Under the pieces are notes generated by a model. It worked only from the letters and a program-made list of their open reading frames with translations, did no database searches and was not told the DNA's origin. Positions 9,915 through 29,230 of a DNA stretch of 31,886 nt are shown piece by piece. Source of the DNA: a virus; the IMG/VR virus record IMGVR_UViG_3300032294_000591, positions 1-31,886 of that record. The stretch is one strand, 5' to 3'. The position numbers were made by a program, and so were the translations under genes. Position 1 is the first letter of the stretch; each line of letters starts with the position of its first letter.

Positions 9915-12314
9915 TTATAATGTTGATAGGTCCTTTAACCTAGCTTGTTTTTGTTGTGCTGATGTTAATTCGTTTTCAACAACATAAGTCTTCATAATCA
10001 TAGGTTGTTGACTTACTGCTGGTTGATTTACTGCTGGTGCATCTGGTCTTGCCCCACCAACTGCGTTACTAGAGAATGATGTTCCTCCACCCATTTGGTT
10101 CATCATTGATAACATAGGTGCAAACATTGATACTGCGCCTCTTGTCATAACTGCTTCACCACCTTCTGCTTCAATCATTACACCACCTTGTGCGTGTCTT
10201 GGTCCATTAATCATACCACCATCAGCATAGTTTTTACCAAGGTTTGCTGCGCTTGAACCAGAACCACTACCACCACCACTACCACCTTCAAATGTAGTAG
10301 AGTTAATTTTATTGATTTGTTGTCCTGTTTGGAACGCAACAATACCAATTCTTATAGTTTTTAAGATACCATCTAAAATAACGTTACCTACTGCTGGTGC
10401 TGCCAATATATTAATAATTGCCGATGCTGCACTCATAAGTGCTGATGCTTTTTGAAGTTTCTTTCTTTTTTCAAACGCATCCTTACTTGTTTTTGCTTCT
10501 TCATCATAGCTACTTGCTAATGCATTAGTAAAATTACCAATCTCCCCAATGATTTGACCAATCTGTTGTGCCTTTTGATTAACTTCATTTCTTCTTAAAT
10601 CCTCACGTAACTTAGCATATTTTTCCTCAATTGCGGTTTTCATTGCTTCAGTTAATTCAACACTCTCTAATTCTCTTTGTTGTGCTGCATTTAATATAGC
10701 TAATTGATTAGCCCAATATTCTTCTGTACCTTGTCTCAAGGCTTCGCCTTTGATCTGAAGGAACCTTAATTCATCATCAAGCTTCTTTAATCTCTTATCC
10801 TCATCTTCTTTAGCTTTATCGTCATCAATCTTTTTAAGGTCATTATTTAAAGCAATTGTGGCGTTTTTAATTGCTGTATTATATTGTTCTTCACTGATTA
10901 ATTTGTCCGCTAATGCTTTGTCTAAATCCTTTTTGGTTTCATCAAAACCTTTTTGTCTTTCTGCTTTTGCTTTAAGTTGAGTATCAGCAATTGCGCTAAC
11001 CTCAATATCCCTAAGCTTTTCGGTAAATTCTCTTACTTTTTCTAATCTCTCTTCTTCCTTCTTCTTATCCTCATCGTCACGTTTTATCTTTAAATCGTCT
11101 GCTTTTGCATTATACTTCATTGTAACCTGTGCAAGCAATTGATTTTTCTTCTCTTGTGAAATTAATAACTCATTAATCTTGGCTTCCTCATCAGCTTTTT
11201 GATTTAATAATTCTTGGTCTTGACGTTTTCTCTCATCTTTTATTGCAAGCGCCGCGTTCTCTTGTTGCAAATCCAATAGCATATCAGCAGCTGTTTTTCT
11301 ATCTGCAGCTACCTTTTGTTGATGTGCTTGTTGTGATTGTAATAATTTTTCTTGTGCTTGTTCTTGTTGTTTACGTTCTTCAGCTACATTATTATAACCT
11401 AAAACTAAATAAGCACTATATGCATCTTTTCTCGCTTTTACCTTATCATCTAAATCTTTTTGAAGTTTTTTCTTGTCTTCTTGACTAGCGGCTGCATATT
11501 TTTTATTAAATTCTTTTACCGCTTGAACTTCAGCATCATAAGCAAGAGTATAATCGTTATATGATTGTTTTAATGTGGCATCTCTAATTTCTTTTTCAGA
11601 CTTGCCAGCAGCTTTCATTGCAGCAATTGTTTCAGCGTTTCTACGTTTTACAGATGCTTTATTTAATTCTAATAATTCATTTTGACTTTCAAGTTCACGA
11701 TTTAATCTATCTGTTGCAGCTGCTGCCTCATCTTCGCCAGTAGCCATATCATATAATGCACTAGCTGCCAAGCCTAATAATACAACTAAGGCACCGATAC
11801 CAGTTGCAGTCAACGCTGCAGCAAATGCCCTAGCACCCGTAGCAGCAGCTTGTTCACCAACACCAACAGCCACAAATGACTTAGCTAACGCATTGTTTAA
11901 TACAGTATATATTTTAGTAATACCACTAGCTTTACCTATATTTGAAGCAATATCTTTAAAGTCATTTAAGGTCTCACCTAATTGGAACTTTAAGTCTTTG
12001 AATGAGAATGATGTGAATAGTTTTAAGCTACCAATTGCACTATCAACAGTACCAGCAAACGCACCAACAGGACCAGGTAGTAATGACAAACTACCAAACA
12101 AGTCTCTTGACTTAGCGGTAGTAGTCTCCATTCTATCTCTTACATCACCTAACTTGGTAGATAGTAATTCAAATTCCTTGGTACCCTCTTTGGTCCTATT
12201 TAACTCTTTGGTTAATTCTCTAAATTGTTGCTTTAAGTTCAACGTAGCATCTACTGCTACATCAATCGGTTTACCATCAACATCGAGAACTATCTCAATT
12301 TTTTTCTTAGCCAT
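9915..12314 (-). CDS. Tail tape measure protein
   Basis: The 799-aa protein has an N-terminal coiled coil (about 25-70), a hydrophobic membrane-like segment (about 163-188, TATGIGALVVLLGLAASALY), and a very long charged coiled-coil rod (about 195-615) full of Lys, Glu, Asp and Gln. A second hydrophobic stretch follows (about 623-660), then a Gly/Ser linker and the C-terminal sequence YADGGMINGPRHAQGGVMIE, AEGGEAVMTRGAVSM, which is characteristic of siphophage tape measures. It sets tail length: at about 0.15 nm per residue, roughly 120 nm. The hydrophobic parts probably insert into the host membrane during DNA entry. No lysozyme or peptidase domain is evident. Confidence 0.9.
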   Translation of the reverse strand: MAKKKIEIVLDVDGKPIDVAVDATLNLKQQFRELTKELNRTKEGTKEFELLSTKLGDVRDRMETTTAKSRDLFGSLSLLPGPVGAFAGTVDSAIGSLKLFTSFSFKDLKFQLGETLNDFKDIASNIGKASGITKIYTVLNNALAKSFVAVGVGEQAAATGARAFAAALTATGIGALVVLLGLAASALYDMATGEDEAAAATDRLNRELESQNELLELNKASVKRRNAETIAAMKAAGKSEKEIRDATLKQSYNDYTLAYDAEVQAVKEFNKKYAAASQEDKKKLQKDLDDKVKARKDAYSAYLVLGYNNVAEERKQQEQAQEKLLQSQQAHQQKVAADRKTAADMLLDLQQENAALAIKDERKRQDQELLNQKADEEAKINELLISQEKKNQLLAQVTMKYNAKADDLKIKRDDEDKKKEEERLEKVREFTEKLRDIEVSAIADTQLKAKAERQKGFDETKKDLDKALADKLISEEQYNTAIKNATIALNNDLKKIDDDKAKEDEDKRLKKLDDELRFLQIKGEALRQGTEEYWANQLAILNAAQQRELESVELTEAMKTAIEEKYAKLREDLRRNEVNQKAQQIGQIIGEIGNFTNALASSYDEEAKTSKDAFEKRKKLQKASALMSAASAIINILAAPAVGNVILDGILKTIRIGIVAFQTGQQINKINSTTFEGGSGGGSGSGSSAANLGKNYADGGMINGPRHAQGGVMIEAEGGEAVMTRGAVSMFAPMLSMMNQMGGGTSFSSNAVGGARPDAPAVNQPAVSQQPMIMKTYVVENELTSAQQKQARLKDLSTL

Positions 12315-12534: not shown

Positions 12535-13602
12535 TTAACATTGTACTGATGAAAATGCTGTTATTTGTCCTGTTGATGAATTAACATCCCAATTCGCACC
12601 ATTCATAAATACATTTGTAAATCCAGTTAATGGTGTTGGTCCTGATGTACTAACATATACAAAACATCCAATACCAAATGAACCAGGGGCACAATCTGAG
12701 TAGAATGTTCTAGAATTTATACCAGCATCATTACAAGCATCTGCAACACTATTACCTCTACCAGAGTTATCATATTGACTTAAACCACCTGGTAATGTCG
12801 CTGTAGGAGTTGGGGTTGGAGTTGGTGTTACACAAGTTCCACCACATTGTGTTCCTTGACCTGTGATTGTAAATTCAGCCAAATTAGCAAATGGGAAACC
12901 ATAAGTAACTGAATTTTGTTGGATACATTCTGGAATAATTTTATTACCTGTAGTTGTATATTCGTGGTATTGTTGTGTACCATTACACAATGTCCATTTA
13001 ACCCAACCAGTATCAGTTACATTCAATGTTACACCAGATACACAACATATTCCTGACGTTGCTGTTGGTGTTGGCGTAGGTGTAGCCGGTAACGGTGTCG
13101 CTGTTGGGGTTGGTGTTGGAGGTGTAATTGAACTAATTGTCAATTGAAGACATACTGGGAATATACATCTATGACCAATAAATCTCATTTCAAAATAATA
13201 CGTTCCATTAGTAAAAGAAGTTACACCCATTTGTGATGGGGTAATGGTAAAAGTAGAACCTGTTTCACTAAATGTAGTTGCACTTATATTTCCATTACCT
13301 CTACTTTGAACTAACCTCCAAGGCTTATAATAGCTTTGACCAGGAACAATACAATGTATTGAATATATAGCTAAAAGATTACTATTTCTAATAAACGGTT
13401 CAGCATTATTTAAAGCCCAGGTTGTATTATGCGTAAAGGTAATTCCTGTTGATGTTACCGTTGTTGCACTGAAATTAGTTACCGTTCCTGATACACAATT
13501 ATTGTTTATATCGTGTACAATCTCAACATCATATTCAGCAACATTATCATTTGGATAAATGAAATTTTCGTTTATTATCTGCTTTATATATTTCCTTCCC
13601 AT
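12535..13602 (-). CDS. Modular receptor-binding / tail-tip accessory protein with Pro-Thr linkers
   Basis: The 355-aa protein has an N-terminal beta-rich domain (about 1-158), then a Pro/Thr linker (about 160-182, PTPTPTATPLPATPTPTPTA), a Cys-rich beta domain (about 184-258, starting GICCVSG), a second linker (about 260-270) and a C-terminal domain (about 273-355; NSVADACNDAGINSR, FGIGCFVYVSTSGPTPLTGF, ending in Cys). Disulfide-prone small domains on Pro/Thr stalks are typical of exposed receptor-binding proteins. The linkers match those of the neighbouring 1592-aa protein in sequence, suggesting shared or recombined modules. Start at 13602 has the leader TATATTTATTAATATG. Confidence 0.65.
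   Translation of the reverse strand: MGRKYIKQIINENFIYPNDNVAEYDVEIVHDINNNCVSGTVTNFSATTVTSTGITFTHNTTWALNNAEPFIRNSNLLAIYSIHCIVPGQSYYKPWRLVQSRGNGNISATTFSETGSTFTITPSQMGVTSFTNGTYYFEMRFIGHRCIFPVCLQLTISSITPPTPTPTATPLPATPTPTPTATSGICCVSGVTLNVTDTGWVKWTLCNGTQQYHEYTTTGNKIIPECIQQNSVTYGFPFANLAEFTITGQGTQCGGTCVTPTPTPTPTATLPGGLSQYDNSGRGNSVADACNDAGINSRTFYSDCAPGSFGIGCFVYVSTSGPTPLTGFTNVFMNGANWDVNSSTGQITAFSSVQC
12799..12832. repeat. Pro/Thr-linker microrepeat (copy a)
   Basis: Plus strand: degenerate GGTGTTGGAGTT-type hexamer units encoding alternating Thr-Pro on the minus strand, in the 355-aa protein. Confidence 0.8.
13055..13124. repeat. Pro/Thr-linker microrepeat (copy b)
   Basis: A second run of GGTGTTGG-like units in the 355-aa gene. 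Unit length is six bases, so slippage would keep the frame and only change stalk length. Confidence 0.8.
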
Positions 13603-13640: not shown

Positions 13641-16600
13641 TTAAGGATTTATCCTCACCAATCCGTATCTTGATGTTCCGTTATATGTGCTGAAGTTACC
13701 GCCAATTAATAATTTATTATCACTTTGTATTGCAATTCTTCTTACCCCACTATAAGTTGCTGGGGATGTTGCAAACCCTGTTCCAACACTAAAGGTTGCA
13801 TCATAACTACCATTTGAAGTAAGTTTAACTAAACCTCTACTTGAATTACCGTTATAGTTATCAAAATCACCAGCTACATATATCGCACCTGTAGAACTAA
13901 TTACAACTTTTCTAAATTGGTCACCTTGTGCTGTATTACCAGAAGTAAATGTTAATCCTGATGTAACACCACTAAATGAGGCGTCTCTTGTACCATCAGT
14001 ATTTAATCTTATGATACCAGGTGCACTAATACCAGAGTATGATGTAAAGTATCCTACAACAATTATTTTACCATCAGATTGAATAGCCACACCTGATGCA
14101 TCAGCATCAAATCCTGTTCCGGTAGTAAAAGATGTATCGGTTGTATAACCAGTTGTTATTCTTCTTATACCTCCAGTAAAGCCAGATGATGGTGTACCTA
14201 CTTGTATAACTTTACCATCTGTTTGTTCAGCAAAATCAAATGTTTTACCAGTAGCACTTGTTGCTGGACCAGTGAACCAAATATTACTATCTTGTGCAAT
14301 AATATGTCCTCTTGATGTATTGCTGAATTTTCTAATCTTCCAAGGATTAGTATTTAATTCTTGCCAAACTGAACTATAAGCAAAACCACTTGTAATGTAT
14401 GCTGTTTTAATTGGATTGACAAATGCTATTGGTGTTGGTGCGGTTCTACTCCATTGTGTCCAACTTCCCCCAACATAGTAACCTGAACCACCAATTTGTG
14501 AGTCAGCAGTTGTACATCTGTCATCAATTGGTGCATAATTAAATAAATGTGATAGTTGATATTGCACCGTTCCAGAATAATTTAATAATGCAGCACCAGA
14601 AGATGATGTTATATTTTGGTCAACCGAAACTAAAATATCTGTTGAATTTAATATATTAATATCCCAAGTATCTTCTTGATATGTAAATGAGGTATCAATT
14701 ATTGCTGGTACTGGTGTTGCAGTTGGTGTCGGTGTAGGTGTACTAGTAGGTGTAGGTGTAGGTGTAGCACTAGGAGTCGGTGTTGGACTAATTGTAGGTG
14801 ATGGACTAGGAGTTGGTGTAGGTGCTATTATTGTTCTACCAGTAACTCTATACTCAAAGTTATAATCTTGTGCAATTGTGGTTGCTGTAAATACTACACT
14901 TAATGCAGTACTGGTTCCAGTAACACCAGTTATATATGTATCTCTAATACCCATATCTCCTCCTTGGTCATCAGTAGTATAATCTCTTCTAATTACATCT
15001 AATGATGAAGCTGTTGATGGTACATTTTCCCTTGATATGGTAATAACAACCACGTCTCCAGGATTTAAATTTGTTGAATATAAATTATCTACCTCTGTAA
15101 AATGAATATCTCGAAGTAGATTATTTACAAAAACATTATAATTATCAATACCTCTATCACGAATTAACTCATCAAATGTCATAATCAACGAACCTAACAT
15201 TGGTGGTGTAGGAGTTGGGGTTGGGCTAGGTATAGCAGTAGCTGTTGGTGTTGGTGTAACCGCTGGACCATAGTATGTTGATGAACCTACTGGTATTGTA
15301 TAAGTCGATGCTGCTGCATTAAATTGTGCACAGTCTTCAAATAAATTATATACAATTTGAGTTGAACCATATGCATAACTTGGCCAATTAGTTTCATTTA
15401 AATCTGCACCTTCATTATTACTAAATAATTTAGGCCATAACTTATCATAAATTCTATTTATACCACTAGCATTATAATTGTCTTCAGTTACTTCATAAAT
15501 TGTGTATGGTACATAATCACCACCATCTTGTCCAAAATCTCTAACTGAACTTGTAAATCCTGTCAAAGGAGTAACACTGGCATTGTTTAAAATACCAATT
15601 GAATAGTCATAGAATACTGACCATCCATAAGACGTTCCACTCAATGATGGATTAGTCATATCAGTTTTAAACTTGAATACTGTACCAGGATTATCACAAT
15701 AATAATACTTAAAATATCTAGTTGGATATTCATTCACCACATTATTGTATTGAATTAACTCAACCTTTGTTAATTCTGGATTAGTTAAATTAAAACCATT
15801 TATTTTATTCCAAGTGAAATATTGGTCTTTAACTTTAATTATATCGTTAGCATTAAGGTTCTCAATATCAGATAGCTTTAGATCAAAGAACCCATTTAAA
15901 AATCTTGTATTTTTATTATATAAATTGTTTATTCTATTTGAATAGAATAGACTGTATGCGTCATTATCAGTGTACACATCAAATGGTGTTACACCTAAGT
16001 CAACTGGTTGTTCTGAATTAAATAAAACAGATATTGAATCATTATTAATTTTATTTGAATCAGGATTACCTATTGGCATTGTATGGCTTACAACAGGAGA
16101 TACAAATCTACCTCTTGGATTAGTACCATTTGAAGCAGCCACATATACTTGGTTTGTTAAGAAAGCACCACTAAAAGGTAATGCTTCACCTAATGTATCT
16201 AAAAATATATTATAAAAACCTAAATGATAAAACAGTTTAGGCTTCGTTTTAACGCCCTTATATTGCCAAGTGACCTTCTCTGTTCCTCCACTTGTTTGAG
16301 ACGAACTAGACGCAGCGTAATTGATTCCTAGAGGTAGTTTAATCTCACCGTTAGGTGCTGTATCTGGTGTATCCCATTGTCTCAATAATTCTGCTGAGAA
16401 TATTGTATCAATCTTTTTTGTTTGTGATTTAAAATCAGTTTGATTGTATACAAAGTTTTGACCATATATTCTGTTGTTTTGGTCCTTAAATGTTTTGTTA
16501 CCATAATCACCGTCCTCTAAATCTGTAAGGATAAGTTCAGACTCAACATAGTTTTGTGCTGGTTCAACTGTAAATCCTTTGTCATATGATAGTTTATTTG

Positions 16601-18419
16601 TCCAATCATATATGTTACCAGTACCAATATAATATGAGTATGGTTCTATTTTTATCTCAGTTGGTCTATCAGGATTTGGAACAAATACAAGGTTGAACTT
16701 TTTTGCTATCGATGATAGTAAATCAATTTGTTTTATATTTGGGTCTATTACTAAACCAAAATCTACATAATCACCATCAACAAATAATTTTGTTGTATTT
16801 GGTGTGCTAGGTGTATAGGATAAAGATGCTGGTGAAATTCCTACATTACCAGTTGTTAAATCAACAAAGTTTTGTTTATACTCTAAACTAAACGGACAAC
16901 CACTTCCACAATCAACATATTGATTACTCACCCAGGAATAAGTTGTTCCAGTTGTATTTGCTGGTATTGTAACAGGAACTGTAGTATCAAATGAACCACC
17001 ACTACAAGGAAACTCCCTAAATGCTAAATTCAAATTAATATCTTCTGAACATAAACAAGGCGTTCCTGTTCCAGCTTTAACTACATATATTGTATATGTT
17101 CTATCTGTTTTAAAATATTGTGTACCACAAGGAAATTCACTACTATCTACATATGTCTCAACAATAATAACATTAACACCCTGTAATGCTAATGTTTGAG
17201 GTACTGGTGTTTTATATGAAAATTTAGTTGCATCAGAACTAAAATATCCATACATATATAACATCTTAAACCAAGGTGTGTTGAAAAAGTCAGAGTCAAT
17301 TGTATAACCATACGTCTTGAACATTAACTGTATTAAGTTTTTAATGTTCAATGCTGGTTTTAATTGGTTATCTAATAAACCATCAGCAAATGAATTTAAT
17401 CTATATCTTTTAACTCCAGCAGCATATGCTGCAGCAGCTGATGCAAAGGAACCAACAATTGTTGATGTATATAATCTTGTTTGTCCAGATGTTGTTGCAC
17501 CACTTAAATTAACAGTATCTCCACTATATTCATATCCGTTATGAACAATTGGATAATAATATGATGGAGGATTGTCAAATGAATAAGGATTGTTATCCCA
17601 ATTTTGAACTTCAAATTTATCAAATTCGTGATTGATACCATATTGTGTATCAGTAAAATCCAAATCCTTTAATAAGTTATTTCCTATCTTACCATATAAA
17701 TCAGCCACACTTGAGAACAATGTTACATCATACTCAATTTTGCTATTCAACACGGAGATTCTATTTAGTTTTAAATAACCATTAAAATATGACTCATCGT
17801 TAACTAAAACACTACAAGGCACTCTTGCCAATGGATTGAAGTACAATGTATCTACATCCACGTTAAAAAAGCTTTCAAAGAACCTATTGTTCTTTTTACT
17901 TCCTGGTAATTGTAATCCAATTGAATAGTCTGAGTTACGTTTAGCAATATCTTGTAATTCAGCAAATGATTTATTTATGGTGATTGGTATATCACTATAT
18001 AAGTCTAATAATTCATATTTATATACAACTTCAACAGTTTCAACAAAATATAAGTTAATTATTTTACTACCAGTATTACTAAAATATAATTGAACAATAT
18101 CTGTATCGTTTACATTAATTGTTCCTGACACCGATGTATTTGAATCATATCTTTGTGATACACCATTAACATATAATTGAAGTGCACCTGTACCAGAATA
18201 TTCATAATACAAAATACCGCTTCTATCATTAATACTAAAAGTAAATTCAGAAACACCTGTTGTTGTTCCAGTATAAGGGTCATTAGCTGTACCAGTTCCA
18301 GAATATAAAATACCAAATGTATCACCAGTTATTACAGAAGTAAAACCTGATTGAACTGTAATTGTATTATCTGGTATGTTAGTTTGAACACGTAAAACTG
18401 TCTGTTGTTGTGTAGCCAT
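13641..18419 (-). CDS. Tail hub / tip protein with Pro-Thr stalks and C-terminal delta-60 repeats
   Basis: The 1592-aa protein starts with a beta domain (about 1-130). The next region, including INKSFAELQDIAKRNSDYSI, SYFNGYLKLNRISVLNSKIE and FSSVADLYGKIGNNLLKDLD, looks like the hub domain of baseplate/tail-tip proteins (gp27-like). A long middle part has many Cys and Tyr. Pro/Thr linkers lie at about 1052-1074 and 1198-1240. The end (about 1385-1592) carries delta-60-type repeats: AIQSDGKIIVVGYFTSYSGI, GLVKLTSNGSYDATFSVGTG and AIQSDNKLLIGGNFSTYNGT. These should form a beta-propeller that may bind host glycans. It would sit at the tail tip as hub plus adhesin. Confidence 0.75.
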   Translation of the reverse strand: MATQQQTVLRVQTNIPDNTITVQSGFTSVITGDTFGILYSGTGTANDPYTGTTTGVSEFTFSINDRSGILYYEYSGTGALQLYVNGVSQRYDSNTSVSGTINVNDTDIVQLYFSNTGSKIINLYFVETVEVVYKYELLDLYSDIPITINKSFAELQDIAKRNSDYSIGLQLPGSKKNNRFFESFFNVDVDTLYFNPLARVPCSVLVNDESYFNGYLKLNRISVLNSKIEYDVTLFSSVADLYGKIGNNLLKDLDFTDTQYGINHEFDKFEVQNWDNNPYSFDNPPSYYYPIVHNGYEYSGDTVNLSGATTSGQTRLYTSTIVGSFASAAAAYAAGVKRYRLNSFADGLLDNQLKPALNIKNLIQLMFKTYGYTIDSDFFNTPWFKMLYMYGYFSSDATKFSYKTPVPQTLALQGVNVIIVETYVDSSEFPCGTQYFKTDRTYTIYVVKAGTGTPCLCSEDINLNLAFREFPCSGGSFDTTVPVTIPANTTGTTYSWVSNQYVDCGSGCPFSLEYKQNFVDLTTGNVGISPASLSYTPSTPNTTKLFVDGDYVDFGLVIDPNIKQIDLLSSIAKKFNLVFVPNPDRPTEIKIEPYSYYIGTGNIYDWTNKLSYDKGFTVEPAQNYVESELILTDLEDGDYGNKTFKDQNNRIYGQNFVYNQTDFKSQTKKIDTIFSAELLRQWDTPDTAPNGEIKLPLGINYAASSSSQTSGGTEKVTWQYKGVKTKPKLFYHLGFYNIFLDTLGEALPFSGAFLTNQVYVAASNGTNPRGRFVSPVVSHTMPIGNPDSNKINNDSISVLFNSEQPVDLGVTPFDVYTDNDAYSLFYSNRINNLYNKNTRFLNGFFDLKLSDIENLNANDIIKVKDQYFTWNKINGFNLTNPELTKVELIQYNNVVNEYPTRYFKYYYCDNPGTVFKFKTDMTNPSLSGTSYGWSVFYDYSIGILNNASVTPLTGFTSSVRDFGQDGGDYVPYTIYEVTEDNYNASGINRIYDKLWPKLFSNNEGADLNETNWPSYAYGSTQIVYNLFEDCAQFNAAASTYTIPVGSSTYYGPAVTPTPTATAIPSPTPTPTPPMLGSLIMTFDELIRDRGIDNYNVFVNNLLRDIHFTEVDNLYSTNLNPGDVVVITISRENVPSTASSLDVIRRDYTTDDQGGDMGIRDTYITGVTGTSTALSVVFTATTIAQDYNFEYRVTGRTIIAPTPTPSPSPTISPTPTPSATPTPTPTSTPTPTPTATPVPAIIDTSFTYQEDTWDINILNSTDILVSVDQNITSSSGAALLNYSGTVQYQLSHLFNYAPIDDRCTTADSQIGGSGYYVGGSWTQWSRTAPTPIAFVNPIKTAYITSGFAYSSVWQELNTNPWKIRKFSNTSRGHIIAQDSNIWFTGPATSATGKTFDFAEQTDGKVIQVGTPSSGFTGGIRRITTGYTTDTSFTTGTGFDADASGVAIQSDGKIIVVGYFTSYSGISAPGIIRLNTDGTRDASFSGVTSGLTFTSGNTAQGDQFRKVVISSTGAIYVAGDFDNYNGNSSRGLVKLTSNGSYDATFSVGTGFATSPATYSGVRRIAIQSDNKLLIGGNFSTYNGTSRYGLVRINP
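14706..14825. repeat. Pro/Thr-linker microrepeat (copy c, longest)
   Basis: About 120 bp of imperfect GGTGTA/GGTGTT units on the plus strand, encoding a Pro-Thr-Ser stalk just before the C-terminal domains of the 1592-aa protein. Confidence 0.85.
15201..15260. repeat. Pro/Thr-linker microrepeat (copy d)
   Basis: A further Pro/Thr linker in the 1592-aa gene, with the same hexamer type as copies a to c. It provides homology for recombination between copies. Confidence 0.8.
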
Positions 18420-25070: not shown

Positions 25071-25897
25071 TTATTTATTTTGTTTCTTCAAATGTTGTTC
25101 TTGTAATTTGGCCTGAACCATATCGTGCTGTATCAAAAAGGTTAACTGGTTTAATATCTCAATCAACGGTTTTTCGAGGATAACTTCGTGTTTTGTAATA
25201 TCATTTCCAGTAACTCTGTTGATGACCACGTACCATCCGAACGTTTTTTGAAAATGAGAAACCATATCATCTTGCGCATCATCCATAAAAGCTTTATCTT
25301 CGTCCATATCGATAATGTCTGAATCGAAGACAACTGGGTATAACTTGAGTATTTGTTTACGAAGTTGATAAAAAAAAACTGCGCTGATATTATATACTTC
25401 ACATCTAGGTCTTTTTTAAACAGTTCTGCACGCTGTTTCATCTTTTCCACATCATACTTCTCTATCTTAAAATCGTGTTCTGACTTTTCCTCCACTATGG
25501 GTCTGTACATAATTGCTGCTAGGATATGCAATAGGTCCAATAACTCTTCTGGCTTCTTGGTTGAGATGGTGTCCATATCCACAAATTCAGCAAAACTTAG
25601 GTCCTTCCAATTAGGAAAGAAACCATAGTGAACACCATTTAAAATAAATCTATCTTTAAATGGAATGTCCTTTCCAGTTGGAATTAATGACATAACATAA
25701 TTAGCCAAATAGCTAACCTCTTGATAGTCTGCTTGAATTAAATCCTCAACTGGTGCATCAGTCATTATGTTTAATAGCTTAGCAGCGAAATAGTCATCAC
25801 TGAATAAGTCTTTAATCTTGTATATCTTTGCATATTTGTCTATGCTGATTATGTCAGGAAGTACGTATTCCTTTTCATCAATTTTAAATTTAACCAT
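25071..25897 (-). CDS. Tail assembly chaperone, full-length product of a -1 frameshift at a T9 run
   Basis: The upstream frame (176 codons, MVKFKIDEKEYVLPDIISID... LSFAEFVDMDTIS... LLHILAAIMYRPI) runs into T9. Slipping back one base continues 99 codons (YQLRKQILKLYPVVFDSDII... FGWYVVINRVTGNDITKHEV) to the stop at 25071, giving a 275-aa fusion. The two parts together match a known chaperone-like pattern of 'F-E-F-D-T ... MYRPI ... GWY..I....DI.K', which in related phages I recall as one reading frame. The 99-codon part has no stop between the T run and its end. It is either a programmed frameshift producing two chaperones, as in many long-tailed phages, or a sequencing indel. Confidence 0.65.
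25163..25897 (-). CDS. Tail assembly chaperone, zero-frame product (244 aa)
   Basis: This is the product if ribosomes do not slip. After residue 176 (the third Phe of the T9 run) it reads 68 residues (starting INFVNKYSSYTQLSSIQTLS) that look like an out-of-frame shadow of the -1 frame rather than evolved protein: they are low in charge pattern and share their DNA with the conserved-looking FGWY...DITK segment. That raises the possibility that the true gene is a single frame with a homopolymer error. It starts 4 bases after terL ends. Confidence 0.55.
   Translation of the reverse strand: MVKFKIDEKEYVLPDIISIDKYAKIYKIKDLFSDDYFAAKLLNIMTDAPVEDLIQADYQEVSYLANYVMSLIPTGKDIPFKDRFILNGVHYGFFPNWKDLSFAEFVDMDTISTKKPEELLDLLHILAAIMYRPIVEEKSEHDFKIEKYDVEKMKQRAELFKKDLDVKYIISAQFFFINFVNKYSSYTQLSSIQTLSIWTKIKLLWMMRKMIWFLIFKKRSDGTWSSTELLEMILQNTKLSSKNR
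25370..25378 (-). other. Slippery T9 run (frameshift site)
   Basis: On the minus strand the codons CAG TTT TTT TTT ATC contain the heptamer T TTT TTT, a valid X-XXY-YYZ slippery site. The -1 frame after it stays open for 99 codons. A weak stem, TCTTCG pairing with CGAAGA, lies about 45 bases downstream; this is too far to be a standard stimulator, and no closer hairpin is obvious. Confidence 0.65.
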
Positions 25898-25901
25898 ATA
25901 T

Positions 25902-27233
25902 TTATATATAAGCCATTGAGTATCGACCTGTGGCTTTCAGGTTTTTTATTTCATAGTACATTCGCATCATCAATGCATCGGAAATATCTGGTGATTTACC
26001 AAGAACTTTCTTCATATCATCTTTTGACCCTACCTGTACCTTATTATCTTTATCTACGTCTTTTAATTTAACTGCTAATAACTCCTGTGTCAAGTCATCA
26101 ACCATTGATGTGTCCAATACGTTTAGACTAATCTTCCCTTCTTTAAATAGTTCAGATAGTTTTACATAACACTGTGATTTGAGGTTAGCAAAGTTTTGGT
26201 TGTGTAATGCTTTTGAGTTGTTAACAAAGTCTGTTCCCCTTAAAATATCACTAACAGGTCCTCCGACACCATCAGCATCAATAATAACATTCTTTGGATG
26301 CACCCCGTATTTCGCTATTAGATTGCTTATTTCGGACGATAATTCAACTGCTGATAGTTTGGTATAGACAAGCACCTCAACGACCGTTAAACCCACCCAT
26401 ACACAAGCCACAGACCTATCTGTTCCAAACCTCGCTACGTCTAATGATATATATTTCTTTTCATCTGCTTTTGGTGCGTGTTTAAATATGGCTGCTGATA
26501 CATCATCAAAGTCAAATAGACTATCTGCTTCCATCTCATAATTCCAATCACCTTCTAGTAGTCTTCGTCTTTGACCTGGTGGTAATGACTTAAGCATCTC
26601 AATGTAAGATGCTGGTAAGTGTGGGTTATCTAGTGGTAATGCTGGGACAAATGCTTTGTTCTCATCCAATGTGTTATCACTGAATGGTAAATAGAATACT
26701 TTCTTTAGCCATACTTGTCCAGGGTTACACGTCATTAATATCTTTGGTATTAAATTAAATTCATTTAGTTTGAAACGAATACGTGATTTAAGGATATTGT
26801 ATGCCAGTTGTGGGATTTGTGCAGCTTCATCTACGAATACTGCTGATAGTTCAAGACCACCTAAGCTGTCATAGTTGGGGTCACTAGGTTGATATGCTAA
26901 ATCTTTTAGCACAATCTCACTCTTGTTGAAGAATGTTATTACATTGGATTGTCCATTGTATGTATAGTGGTCACCTGACTTTAAATCCATTGCGTGAAGT
27001 GTTTCAAACAAGGTGTTTAATGTGGTTAGCTTTAATTGTTGCAACACTGTTCTACCGATTAGACAACGGATGCCATTATACTTTAAACATAGTGTAACAA
27101 TCCACAAACAACCAAGCCAAGATTTTCCAGCGCCTGCGGATCCACCGTACAGAATTTCATTAGTTTTATCATCGAATAATAATTTCCACGCTATGGATTG
27201 TTTTTTAGTTAGATTTATATCAATTGTGGACAT
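25902..27233 (-). CDS. terL: Terminase large subunit (TerL)
   Basis: The 443-aa packaging ATPase/nuclease has Walker A GGSAGAGKS (30-38), Walker B VFVDEA (132-137) and coupling motif TCNP (168-171). The RNase-H-like nuclease has its acidic residues in LDVARFGTDRS (D265), IIDADGVGG (D319) and SPDISDALM (D416/D419). All key residues are present, so it should be active. It uses ATP to translocate DNA through the portal and cuts concatemers. Its start overlaps the glycosyltransferase stop by 14 bases, so TerS and TerL are separated by an extra gene. Confidence 0.95.
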   Translation of the reverse strand: MSTIDINLTKKQSIAWKLLFDDKTNEILYGGSAGAGKSWLGCLWIVTLCLKYNGIRCLIGRTVLQQLKLTTLNTLFETLHAMDLKSGDHYTYNGQSNVITFFNKSEIVLKDLAYQPSDPNYDSLGGLELSAVFVDEAAQIPQLAYNILKSRIRFKLNEFNLIPKILMTCNPGQVWLKKVFYLPFSDNTLDENKAFVPALPLDNPHLPASYIEMLKSLPPGQRRRLLEGDWNYEMEADSLFDFDDVSAAIFKHAPKADEKKYISLDVARFGTDRSVACVWVGLTVVEVLVYTKLSAVELSSEISNLIAKYGVHPKNVIIDADGVGGPVSDILRGTDFVNNSKALHNQNFANLKSQCYVKLSELFKEGKISLNVLDTSMVDDLTQELLAVKLKDVDKDNKVQVGSKDDMKKVLGKSPDISDALMMRMYYEIKNLKATGRYSMAYI

Positions 27234-27804
27234 ATAGTATTCTGTTTACCTTCTTCATCTTTGTGTGTTTAAACTTATGCATATACTCCTCAACGAAATA
27301 CCAGTCAGCCCATTCTTGATTTGTTTTTAATTTAATCTTTTGTGCCAGATTTGTTTTAAGCATAAAGCACCCAATATCAATTTGACCAAAGTTTAATTTA
27401 GTTTTAACTGGAATATATTGTCTGTCAGTCCAGTTATGAACCATATCACAATACACAAAGTGCTGGTCCTTTCCTTCATTTAGCATTATATCAACAAATT
27501 CTGGTACATAATAATTATCTTCACCAGTCATTAGCACCCATTCTTCTGTGGCATTATCAACACCATATTGTCTTGGAGTATGTCCCCAATCATTATGTCT
27601 GTCTTCTAATACCGTAACTCTAATTCTTGGGTCATCAAAAAAATCAATCATCTGTTCCATTCGTTTTAAAAAGTCTGGTTCAGGACAGTCAGCAACAATA
27701 TGTGCTTTCCAATTTGGATTTGACTGCGCAATTAGCGAACTAACGGTGGCTATCAGATGGTTTATTCTGTTGTATGTTGGTATAACAAATTCAATTTTTT
27801 TCAT
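27220..27804 (-). CDS. Glycosyltransferase, GT-A fold (family 2-like), inserted between terS and terL
   Basis: The 194-aa protein starts MKKIEFVIPTYNRINHLIAT, the N-terminal nucleotide-sugar binding strand and loop of GT2-like enzymes. TGEDN (93-97) takes the place of the DxD metal motif, and WADWYFVEEYMH near the C-terminus fits the acceptor-side helix. It is shorter than typical GT2 enzymes (about 250-300 aa) but otherwise intact. It could glycosylate virion proteins, phage DNA or host surface sugars (superinfection exclusion). Since it is soluble, with no membrane segment, a cytoplasmic or virion substrate is likely. It sits where no canonical gene belongs, the pattern expected of a moron-like acquisition. 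Confidence 0.8.
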   Translation of the reverse strand: MKKIEFVIPTYNRINHLIATVSSLIAQSNPNWKAHIVADCPEPDFLKRMEQMIDFFDDPRIRVTVLEDRHNDWGHTPRQYGVDNATEEWVLMTGEDNYYVPEFVDIMLNEGKDQHFVYCDMVHNWTDRQYIPVKTKLNFGQIDIGCFMLKTNLAQKIKLKTNQEWADWYFVEEYMHKFKHTKMKKVNRILYVHN

Positions 27805-28603: not shown

Positions 28604-29230
28604 TTAATAATTGTCTTTATTGTTGAATGGGTCGTTAGCCCACTTATTTAATTCTTCTGCGTGTAACTGTTCTGGGGTTTGTGCTTTGCTTGTTCTTTCT
28701 TTTACTGTTACTGATGGTTTAAATGCATACAATACACCTTGATAGTCTATGTCTAAGTGTGGGAATTTGTAGTATGTTAATTCATAACCATTATCCTTTA
28801 ATAGTCGTTCACAGGATACCAAACAAGATAGGTTGTGATACTCAATACCAATATGGCGCGTATTAGCCAGATACTCTGGATTTAAGCCATTCAAAAATAG
28901 TTCTGACCCTTCTATATCAATCTTTAATACATCGGGCTTGTAATAGCCCAAATACAGTTCAAACTTCTCGATACGGTCAACGTAGTCCTTGATGTTAATA
29001 AAGTTCTTTACATTGAAGTTATTCTTATACCATTGGTATGATTCTTCTGATGGGTCCACACCTATCACCAGCTTTGCTTTATTGGTTGACCAGTGCATTG
29101 GTGTTGGCATATGTTCATTGTTATTAATACCGCATCCTAGATCCAGGATGATTTTACCTTCAATCGGTAGAAAGCCCCAGTGTTCAACAGGGTTCTCTGT
29201 GTGTATAATTCCTTTTGCAATTCGTTCCAT
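28604..29230 (-). CDS. SAM-dependent methyltransferase, FkbM-like
   Basis: The 208-aa class I methyltransferase has motif I LDLGCG (29-34), GVDPSEES (57-64) for the acidic ribose-binding loop, and LKIDIEGSE (102-110), the signature of the FkbM family of O-methyltransferases (often acting on sugars or sugar-linked compounds). It shares the operon with a glycosyltransferase, so the two may together make a methylated glycan on a virion protein or host surface. A DNA methyltransferase is unlikely, as there is no target-recognition domain and no NPPY/DPPY or PC motif. Confidence 0.8.
   Translation of the reverse strand: MERIAKGIIHTENPVEHWGFLPIEGKIILDLGCGINNNEHMPTPMHWSTNKAKLVIGVDPSEESYQWYKNNFNVKNFINIKDYVDRIEKFELYLGYYKPDVLKIDIEGSELFLNGLNPEYLANTRHIGIEYHNLSCLVSCERLLKDNGYELTYYKFPHLDIDYQGVLYAFKPSVTVKERTSKAQTPEQLHAEELNKWANDPFNNKDNY

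Follow-up and report, generated by a model that had tools for sequence, protein, structure and literature searches.

Programmed −1 frameshifting at a conserved T run probably yields two putative tail assembly chaperones with alternative C-terminal extensions encoded by the same phage DNA

We describe here a gene, found in a 31,886-base stretch of viral DNA (the window, meaning the whole stretch analyzed), that very probably encodes two tail assembly chaperones from a single start codon. Comparison with related loci shows that the slippery site and the gene order are conserved, and that the two frames are both open and under selection. According to this model most ribosomes would pass the T run in the zero frame, generating a 244-residue short form, whilst a minority would slip back one base on T_TTT_TTT to give a form of about 275 residues with a helical −1-frame domain, in the manner of lambda gpG and gpGT. 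If the analogy with lambda holds, the N-terminal part common to both forms would coat the tape measure, and recruitment of the tail tube protein would fall to the −1 domain. In the window's branch, that of flavobacteria-type phages, the short form would in addition carry its own conserved C-terminal extension of 68 codons, on 208 nt that also encode the first two thirds of the −1 domain. The features concerned are as follows.

25163..25897, minus strand: zero-frame product of 244 residues, in which codons 1-176 form the shared N-terminal domain and are followed by a 68-codon zero-frame C-terminal extension
25370..25378, minus strand: T9 run, read in the zero frame as CAG TTT TTT TTT ATC
25376..25370, minus strand: slippery heptamer T_TTT_TTT within the T9 run, present in all 130 distinct relatives whose sequence covers the site
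25071..25370, minus strand: −1-frame C-terminal extension of 99 codons plus stop, with the conserved domain GW[FY]..[VIT]N[RK]...ND..KH...EVLNQLS
25163..25370, minus strand: dual-coded overlap of 208 nt, comprising two open frames with purifying selection on each
25902..27233, minus strand: terL (terminase large subunit), directly upstream of the frameshift gene; best named match Flavobacterium phage 11b at 47% identity
24048..25052, minus strand: next gene downstream, 334 residues, containing an internal duplication and belonging to the conserved synteny
9915..12314, minus strand: tape-measure-like protein of 799 residues, the presumed chaperone client (PHROG 1506 tape measure, E 2e-5)

The preliminary description of this DNA had proposed that a gene read up to TTT TTT TTT continues, after a −1 slip on the T9 run, through 99 further codons ending at 25071, and this arrangement is confirmed on the minus strand. 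The −1 product would be about 275 residues long. Without the slip, the zero frame stays open for 68 codons. The T9 run is the sole A/T homopolymer of at least 8 bases in the window. Likewise, the window's predicted genes contain 59 in-frame X_XXY_YYZ heptamers, of which only the T_TTT_TTT at 25376..25370 precedes a −1 frame that stays open past 33 codons. An internal start for the −1 reading frame, at the ATG at 25307, was rejected on alignment inspection, as this ATG is missing from some relatives. When folded alone the −1 domain is predicted to be all-helical, with a mean pLDDT of 78; fold searches with this predicted structure returned no match.

The site is strongly conserved. A first IMG/VR search with the zero-frame protein as query recovered 78 related loci. 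Since such a query may favor loci with an open zero frame, the searches were repeated with the −1 domain alone, with a profile, and with the upstream parts of two divergent members. Over all loci, T_TTT_TTT is present in frame in each of the 130 distinct contexts spanning the site, as T9 in 110, T7 in 19 and T10 in 1; four loci listed without the heptamer end before the site. The codon preceding TTT TTT is TTT, ACT, TCT, CTT, CGT or AGT, so that the encoded residue varies (Phe, Thr, Ser, Leu or Arg) whilst the third base is T in every case. This is the pattern expected if it is the heptamer, and not the protein, that is being conserved. TTC accounts for 28% of the Phe codons upstream of the site, and the in-frame X_XXY_YYZ heptamer is thus kept beyond coding need. 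Both frames are open past the site in all relatives. Within the window's branch the zero extension spans 62-87 codons (68 in most) and the −1 extension mostly 95-100. The order terL, frameshift gene and same next gene is found in 163 of the 189 loci with room upstream. No host or prophage relatives were confirmed in genome contigs. Taken together, the heptamer in 130 of 130 contexts and the two open frames bear out the proposed programmed −1 frameshift, which on this comparative evidence we regard as almost certain.

The preliminary description had offered the alternative that the gene has a single frame, broken by an indel from sequencing or assembly. Homopolymers are classic sites for such errors, and the −1 domain taken alone resembles an ordinary protein. 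Nevertheless, the frame breaks at the same codon in two isolated Nonlabens phages and in 130 distinct loci drawn from many metagenomes, and the zero-frame sequence past the run is conserved and selected. No single-frame version of the gene emerged among the relatives found. The occurrence of the same slippery site in the 130 relatives and the two isolates rules out the indel explanation for practical purposes.

The shift is most likely ribosomal. As a heptamer, T_TTT_TTT is of the standard type for tandem slippage. The competing mechanism is transcriptional slippage, in which RNA polymerase would add or drop a U on the T9 run, producing mixed mRNAs and hence two products without any ribosomal shift. 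A T9 run falls within the length range at which bacterial RNA polymerases slip, it is present in 110 of the 130 loci, and in this window it is the only long homopolymer. However, 19 of the 130 loci, in several separate branches, have T7 only, where slippage is expected to be weak, and the constant feature is the in-frame heptamer rather than the length of the run. The T7 contexts thus favor ribosomal shifting, and we consider transcriptional slippage improbable. In E. coli U_UUU_UUU was reported to be less shift-prone than A_AAA_AAG (PMC5009743). A weaker site is counted against the frameshift model, though it fits a −1 product made in the minority.

The absence of an obvious stimulator hairpin, remarked on from the sequence at the outset, agrees with our consensus folding, in which RNAalifold recovered no conserved structure and no two-sided compensatory change downstream of the site. 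Folding of the single sequence gave a z-score of −0.59 for a downstream RNA stimulator. Stimulators, whether a downstream stem-loop or pseudoknot or an upstream Shine-Dalgarno sequence, often accompany canonical −1 sites but are not essential to them. The terL match to Flavobacterium phage 11b (47%) and the relationship to the P12024 phages, which infect a marine flavobacterium, make a Bacteroidota host probable. Bacteroidia ribosomes sequester the anti-Shine-Dalgarno sequence (PMC9976891), and an upstream Shine-Dalgarno stimulator is therefore not expected. A U_UUU_UUU site lacking a conserved hairpin, in phages of probable Bacteroidota hosts, would provide a simple natural system in which to study how ribosomes indifferent to Shine-Dalgarno sequences undergo −1 shifts.

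The zero-frame extension had been taken for a shadow of the −1 frame. This reading does not hold, because the extension is open and conserved in every relative and is under purifying selection at the amino acid level. We carried out recoding tests with 19 divergent representatives of less than 75% identity. Under synonymous recoding of the −1 protein, the mean probability of the zero frame staying open for so long was 0.005 per sequence (log10 of the product, −53); the reciprocal test gave 0.009. We compared third-position differences across 18 disjoint sister pairs: in the −1 frame these amounted to 0.153 within the overlap and 0.381 within the −1-only tail (Fisher p 8e-22), and in the zero frame upstream to 0.259. 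Compared with the −1-only tail, the overlap uses single −1-silent changes approximately threefold less often, and the ones used are conservative in the zero frame. For −1-silent transitions in the overlap, the mean zero-frame BLOSUM62 score was 0.03 for the changes used and −0.68 for those available (p 0.0006); for transversions the corresponding values were 0.38 and −1.56 (p <5e-5). The rarity and the conservative nature of these changes together indicate that both C-terminal extensions are selected. An invariant zero-frame Trp illustrates the constraint at a single position: it restricts the overlapping −1 codon to ATG, GTG or TTG, including at positions where other codons would be the norm for Val or Leu.

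Along the overlap, the constraints from the two frames seem to be partly separated. Within −1 codons 10-40 the zero-frame third position is the fastest-changing or nearly so, whilst in −1 codons 40-50 and past the overlap it is the −1 third position that changes fastest. A marine branch served as a control, and here the −1 third-position difference was only mildly reduced (0.18 in the overlap against 0.267 outside). Strong dual coding thus looks to be specific to the window's branch.

Could the zero-frame extension still be a passive shadow, with only the −1 extension mattering and the apparent constraint arising from an RNA element in the overlap? The net charge and hydropathy of the extension match the prediction from −1 composition, and the overlap is weakly constrained in the distant marine branch. 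Against this, stops are avoided in the zero frame, the zero-frame changes are conservative, zero-frame third positions change faster in −1 codons 10-40, and there is no conserved RNA structure. We judge this explanation very unlikely, and consider with high confidence, from the substitution patterns, that both endings are under selection. A selected basic character of the zero-frame extension was also considered and rejected: −1 synonymous recoding predicts the same charge and hydropathy, which are thus by-products of −1 composition and provide no evidence of function. The preliminary description had treated conserved zero-frame sequence after the run as an argument against a frameshift. Homologues do have such sequence, but their −1 frame is conserved as well, which indicates dual coding and not a choice of one frame or the other.

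Two products sharing an N-terminal domain by way of a conserved frameshift site are predicted, from the two open frames, in all 130 loci. The gene sits in the tail/terminase block with conserved synteny, yet lies 12.8 kb from the tape-measure-like gene. Structural comparison of N-terminal residues 1-76 with the HK97 tail assembly chaperone (2ob9) gave a weak match (Z 3.0, rmsd 4.3 over 74 residues). In a second-look alignment against 190 chains, 2ob9 was the only PDB chain with a Z of at least 2 to the shared N-terminal domain. This is the best structural match of the 76 residues and is too weak to prove homology. A BFVD search matched a protein annotated as tail assembly chaperone ctCpR1 (E 0.04). 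Pfam and PHROG family searches yielded no chaperone label and no informative label, and Foldseek against the PDB with the 244-residue form gave no significant match. The two-product architecture, the synteny of the tail block with its gp10-like gene, and the weak HK97 match nevertheless point to a tail assembly chaperone. The original assignment to this class is accordingly retained as probable on architecture, synteny and a weak fold match, though no curated family label accompanies it.

The position of the gene, recognized from the start as unusual, is indeed so: it begins 4 nt past the end of terL, with 12.8 kb between it and the tape-measure-like gene downstream. This placement next to terL and far from the tape measure, together with the lack of a curated family match, would suit a protein that has the same two-frame architecture but is some other tail or head assembly factor, and not a chaperone of the lambda G/GT type. 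However, a shared N-terminus to which a −1 frameshift adds a domain is characteristic of tail chaperones, the synteny with a gp10-like tail gene is conserved, and the weak fold matches are to the HK97 chaperone and (at E 0.04) an annotated tail assembly chaperone. A different assembly factor is on balance unlikely, and the chaperone assignment remains our preferred reading.

Lambda gpG/gpGT and the other tail assembly chaperones that long-tailed phages produce by −1 frameshifting (PMC5009743) likewise have one start, an abundant short form and a longer −1 form, and their heptamer is also located near the end of the shared N-terminal domain. Chaperones of the G/GT type are characterized by binding to the tape measure, by an extension that binds the tube protein, and by their absence from virions. 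The present gene differs from these lambda-type systems in lying directly after terL instead of just upstream of the tape measure, in using the slip site T_TTT_TTT, and in a short form that runs on for 68 codons in a conserved, selected extension. In the SEA-PHAGES set of actinophages used to train PRFect, the distance from slip site to zero-frame stop averages 26 nt (PMC10885494), whereas in the present gene this distance is about 205 nt, which code in both frames.

The more distant relatives retain the slip site but differ in the length of the zero extension. The marine branch mentioned above (loci L184-L202, about 30% identity) has GTT TTT TTT TGC at the equivalent codons, and so the same T_TTT_TTT heptamer, with a −1 domain carrying a WGWY motif. 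Its gene order is terL, frameshift gene, a single-copy 153-residue gene and gp10-like. Unlike in the window, the zero extension is of 39 weakly constrained codons and the −1 extension of 84. Through these marine relatives we reached the Nonlabens (Persicivirga) phages P12024S and P12024L. P12024S has CTT TTT TTT TAT near the end of gp38, which directly follows terL, and its −1 frame runs on into gp39, annotated separately as hypothetical; a second record, almost identical and with the 35,652-base length of P12024L, has the same arrangement. The window-family profile matches P12024S gp38 with an hhalign E of 1.5e-7. Like the window, these phages combine a homologous N-terminal domain, a T9 run at the same position after terL and a −1 domain downstream, but their zero extension is only about 25 codons. 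The P12024S record gives gp38 and gp39 as two hypothetical proteins and notes no frameshift. In the one annotated relative that we examined closely, the second half of the gene has thus been split off as hypothetical. The best reading of P12024S gp38 and gp39 (locus L246, 12013-12707) is as a single frameshift gene, and they could be re-annotated accordingly.

A structural relative in Flavobacterium phage 6H, R9VW65, was assigned to gp10 by its length of 191 residues, with weak sequence support. In this phage (locus L247, 10000-10927) the −1 frame closes at once after T_TTT_TTC. An unannotated 305-nt gap after phage 6H gp10 holds an open reading frame of approximately 100 codons in the −1 frame.

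From these comparisons we lean towards a view in which the window's branch has two alternative functional C-terminal domains on the same DNA, that of the short chaperone having been overprinted on an ancestral −1 domain, such that frameshifting would choose between two specialized chaperones and not simply append a domain to a truncated form. A domain would then probably have been born here by overprinting, and the related branches have weak constraint or a short overlap. In the usual picture the short chaperone is simply the long form minus its extension, whereas here the short form has its own conserved ending over 208 shared nt, making a separate role for the short chaperone testable. A dual-coded chaperone overlap of this kind was not found in the open-access literature, our coverage of which was incomplete.

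Several neighboring genes merit description. The product of the 24048-25052 gene (PHROG 30964) consists of two tandem copies of a domain of approximately 150 residues and is possibly a tail terminator-like protein; its marine counterpart is a single 153-residue copy (locus L186, 4754-5215). Positions 12535-13602 and 13641-18419 of the window encode two large structural proteins with TPTPTAT-type proline-threonine repeats, which are probably linkers in fiber or surface proteins. Directly or closely upstream of terL, at 27220-27804 and 28604-29230, are glycosyltransferase-like and methyltransferase-like genes, so described from reading their translations.
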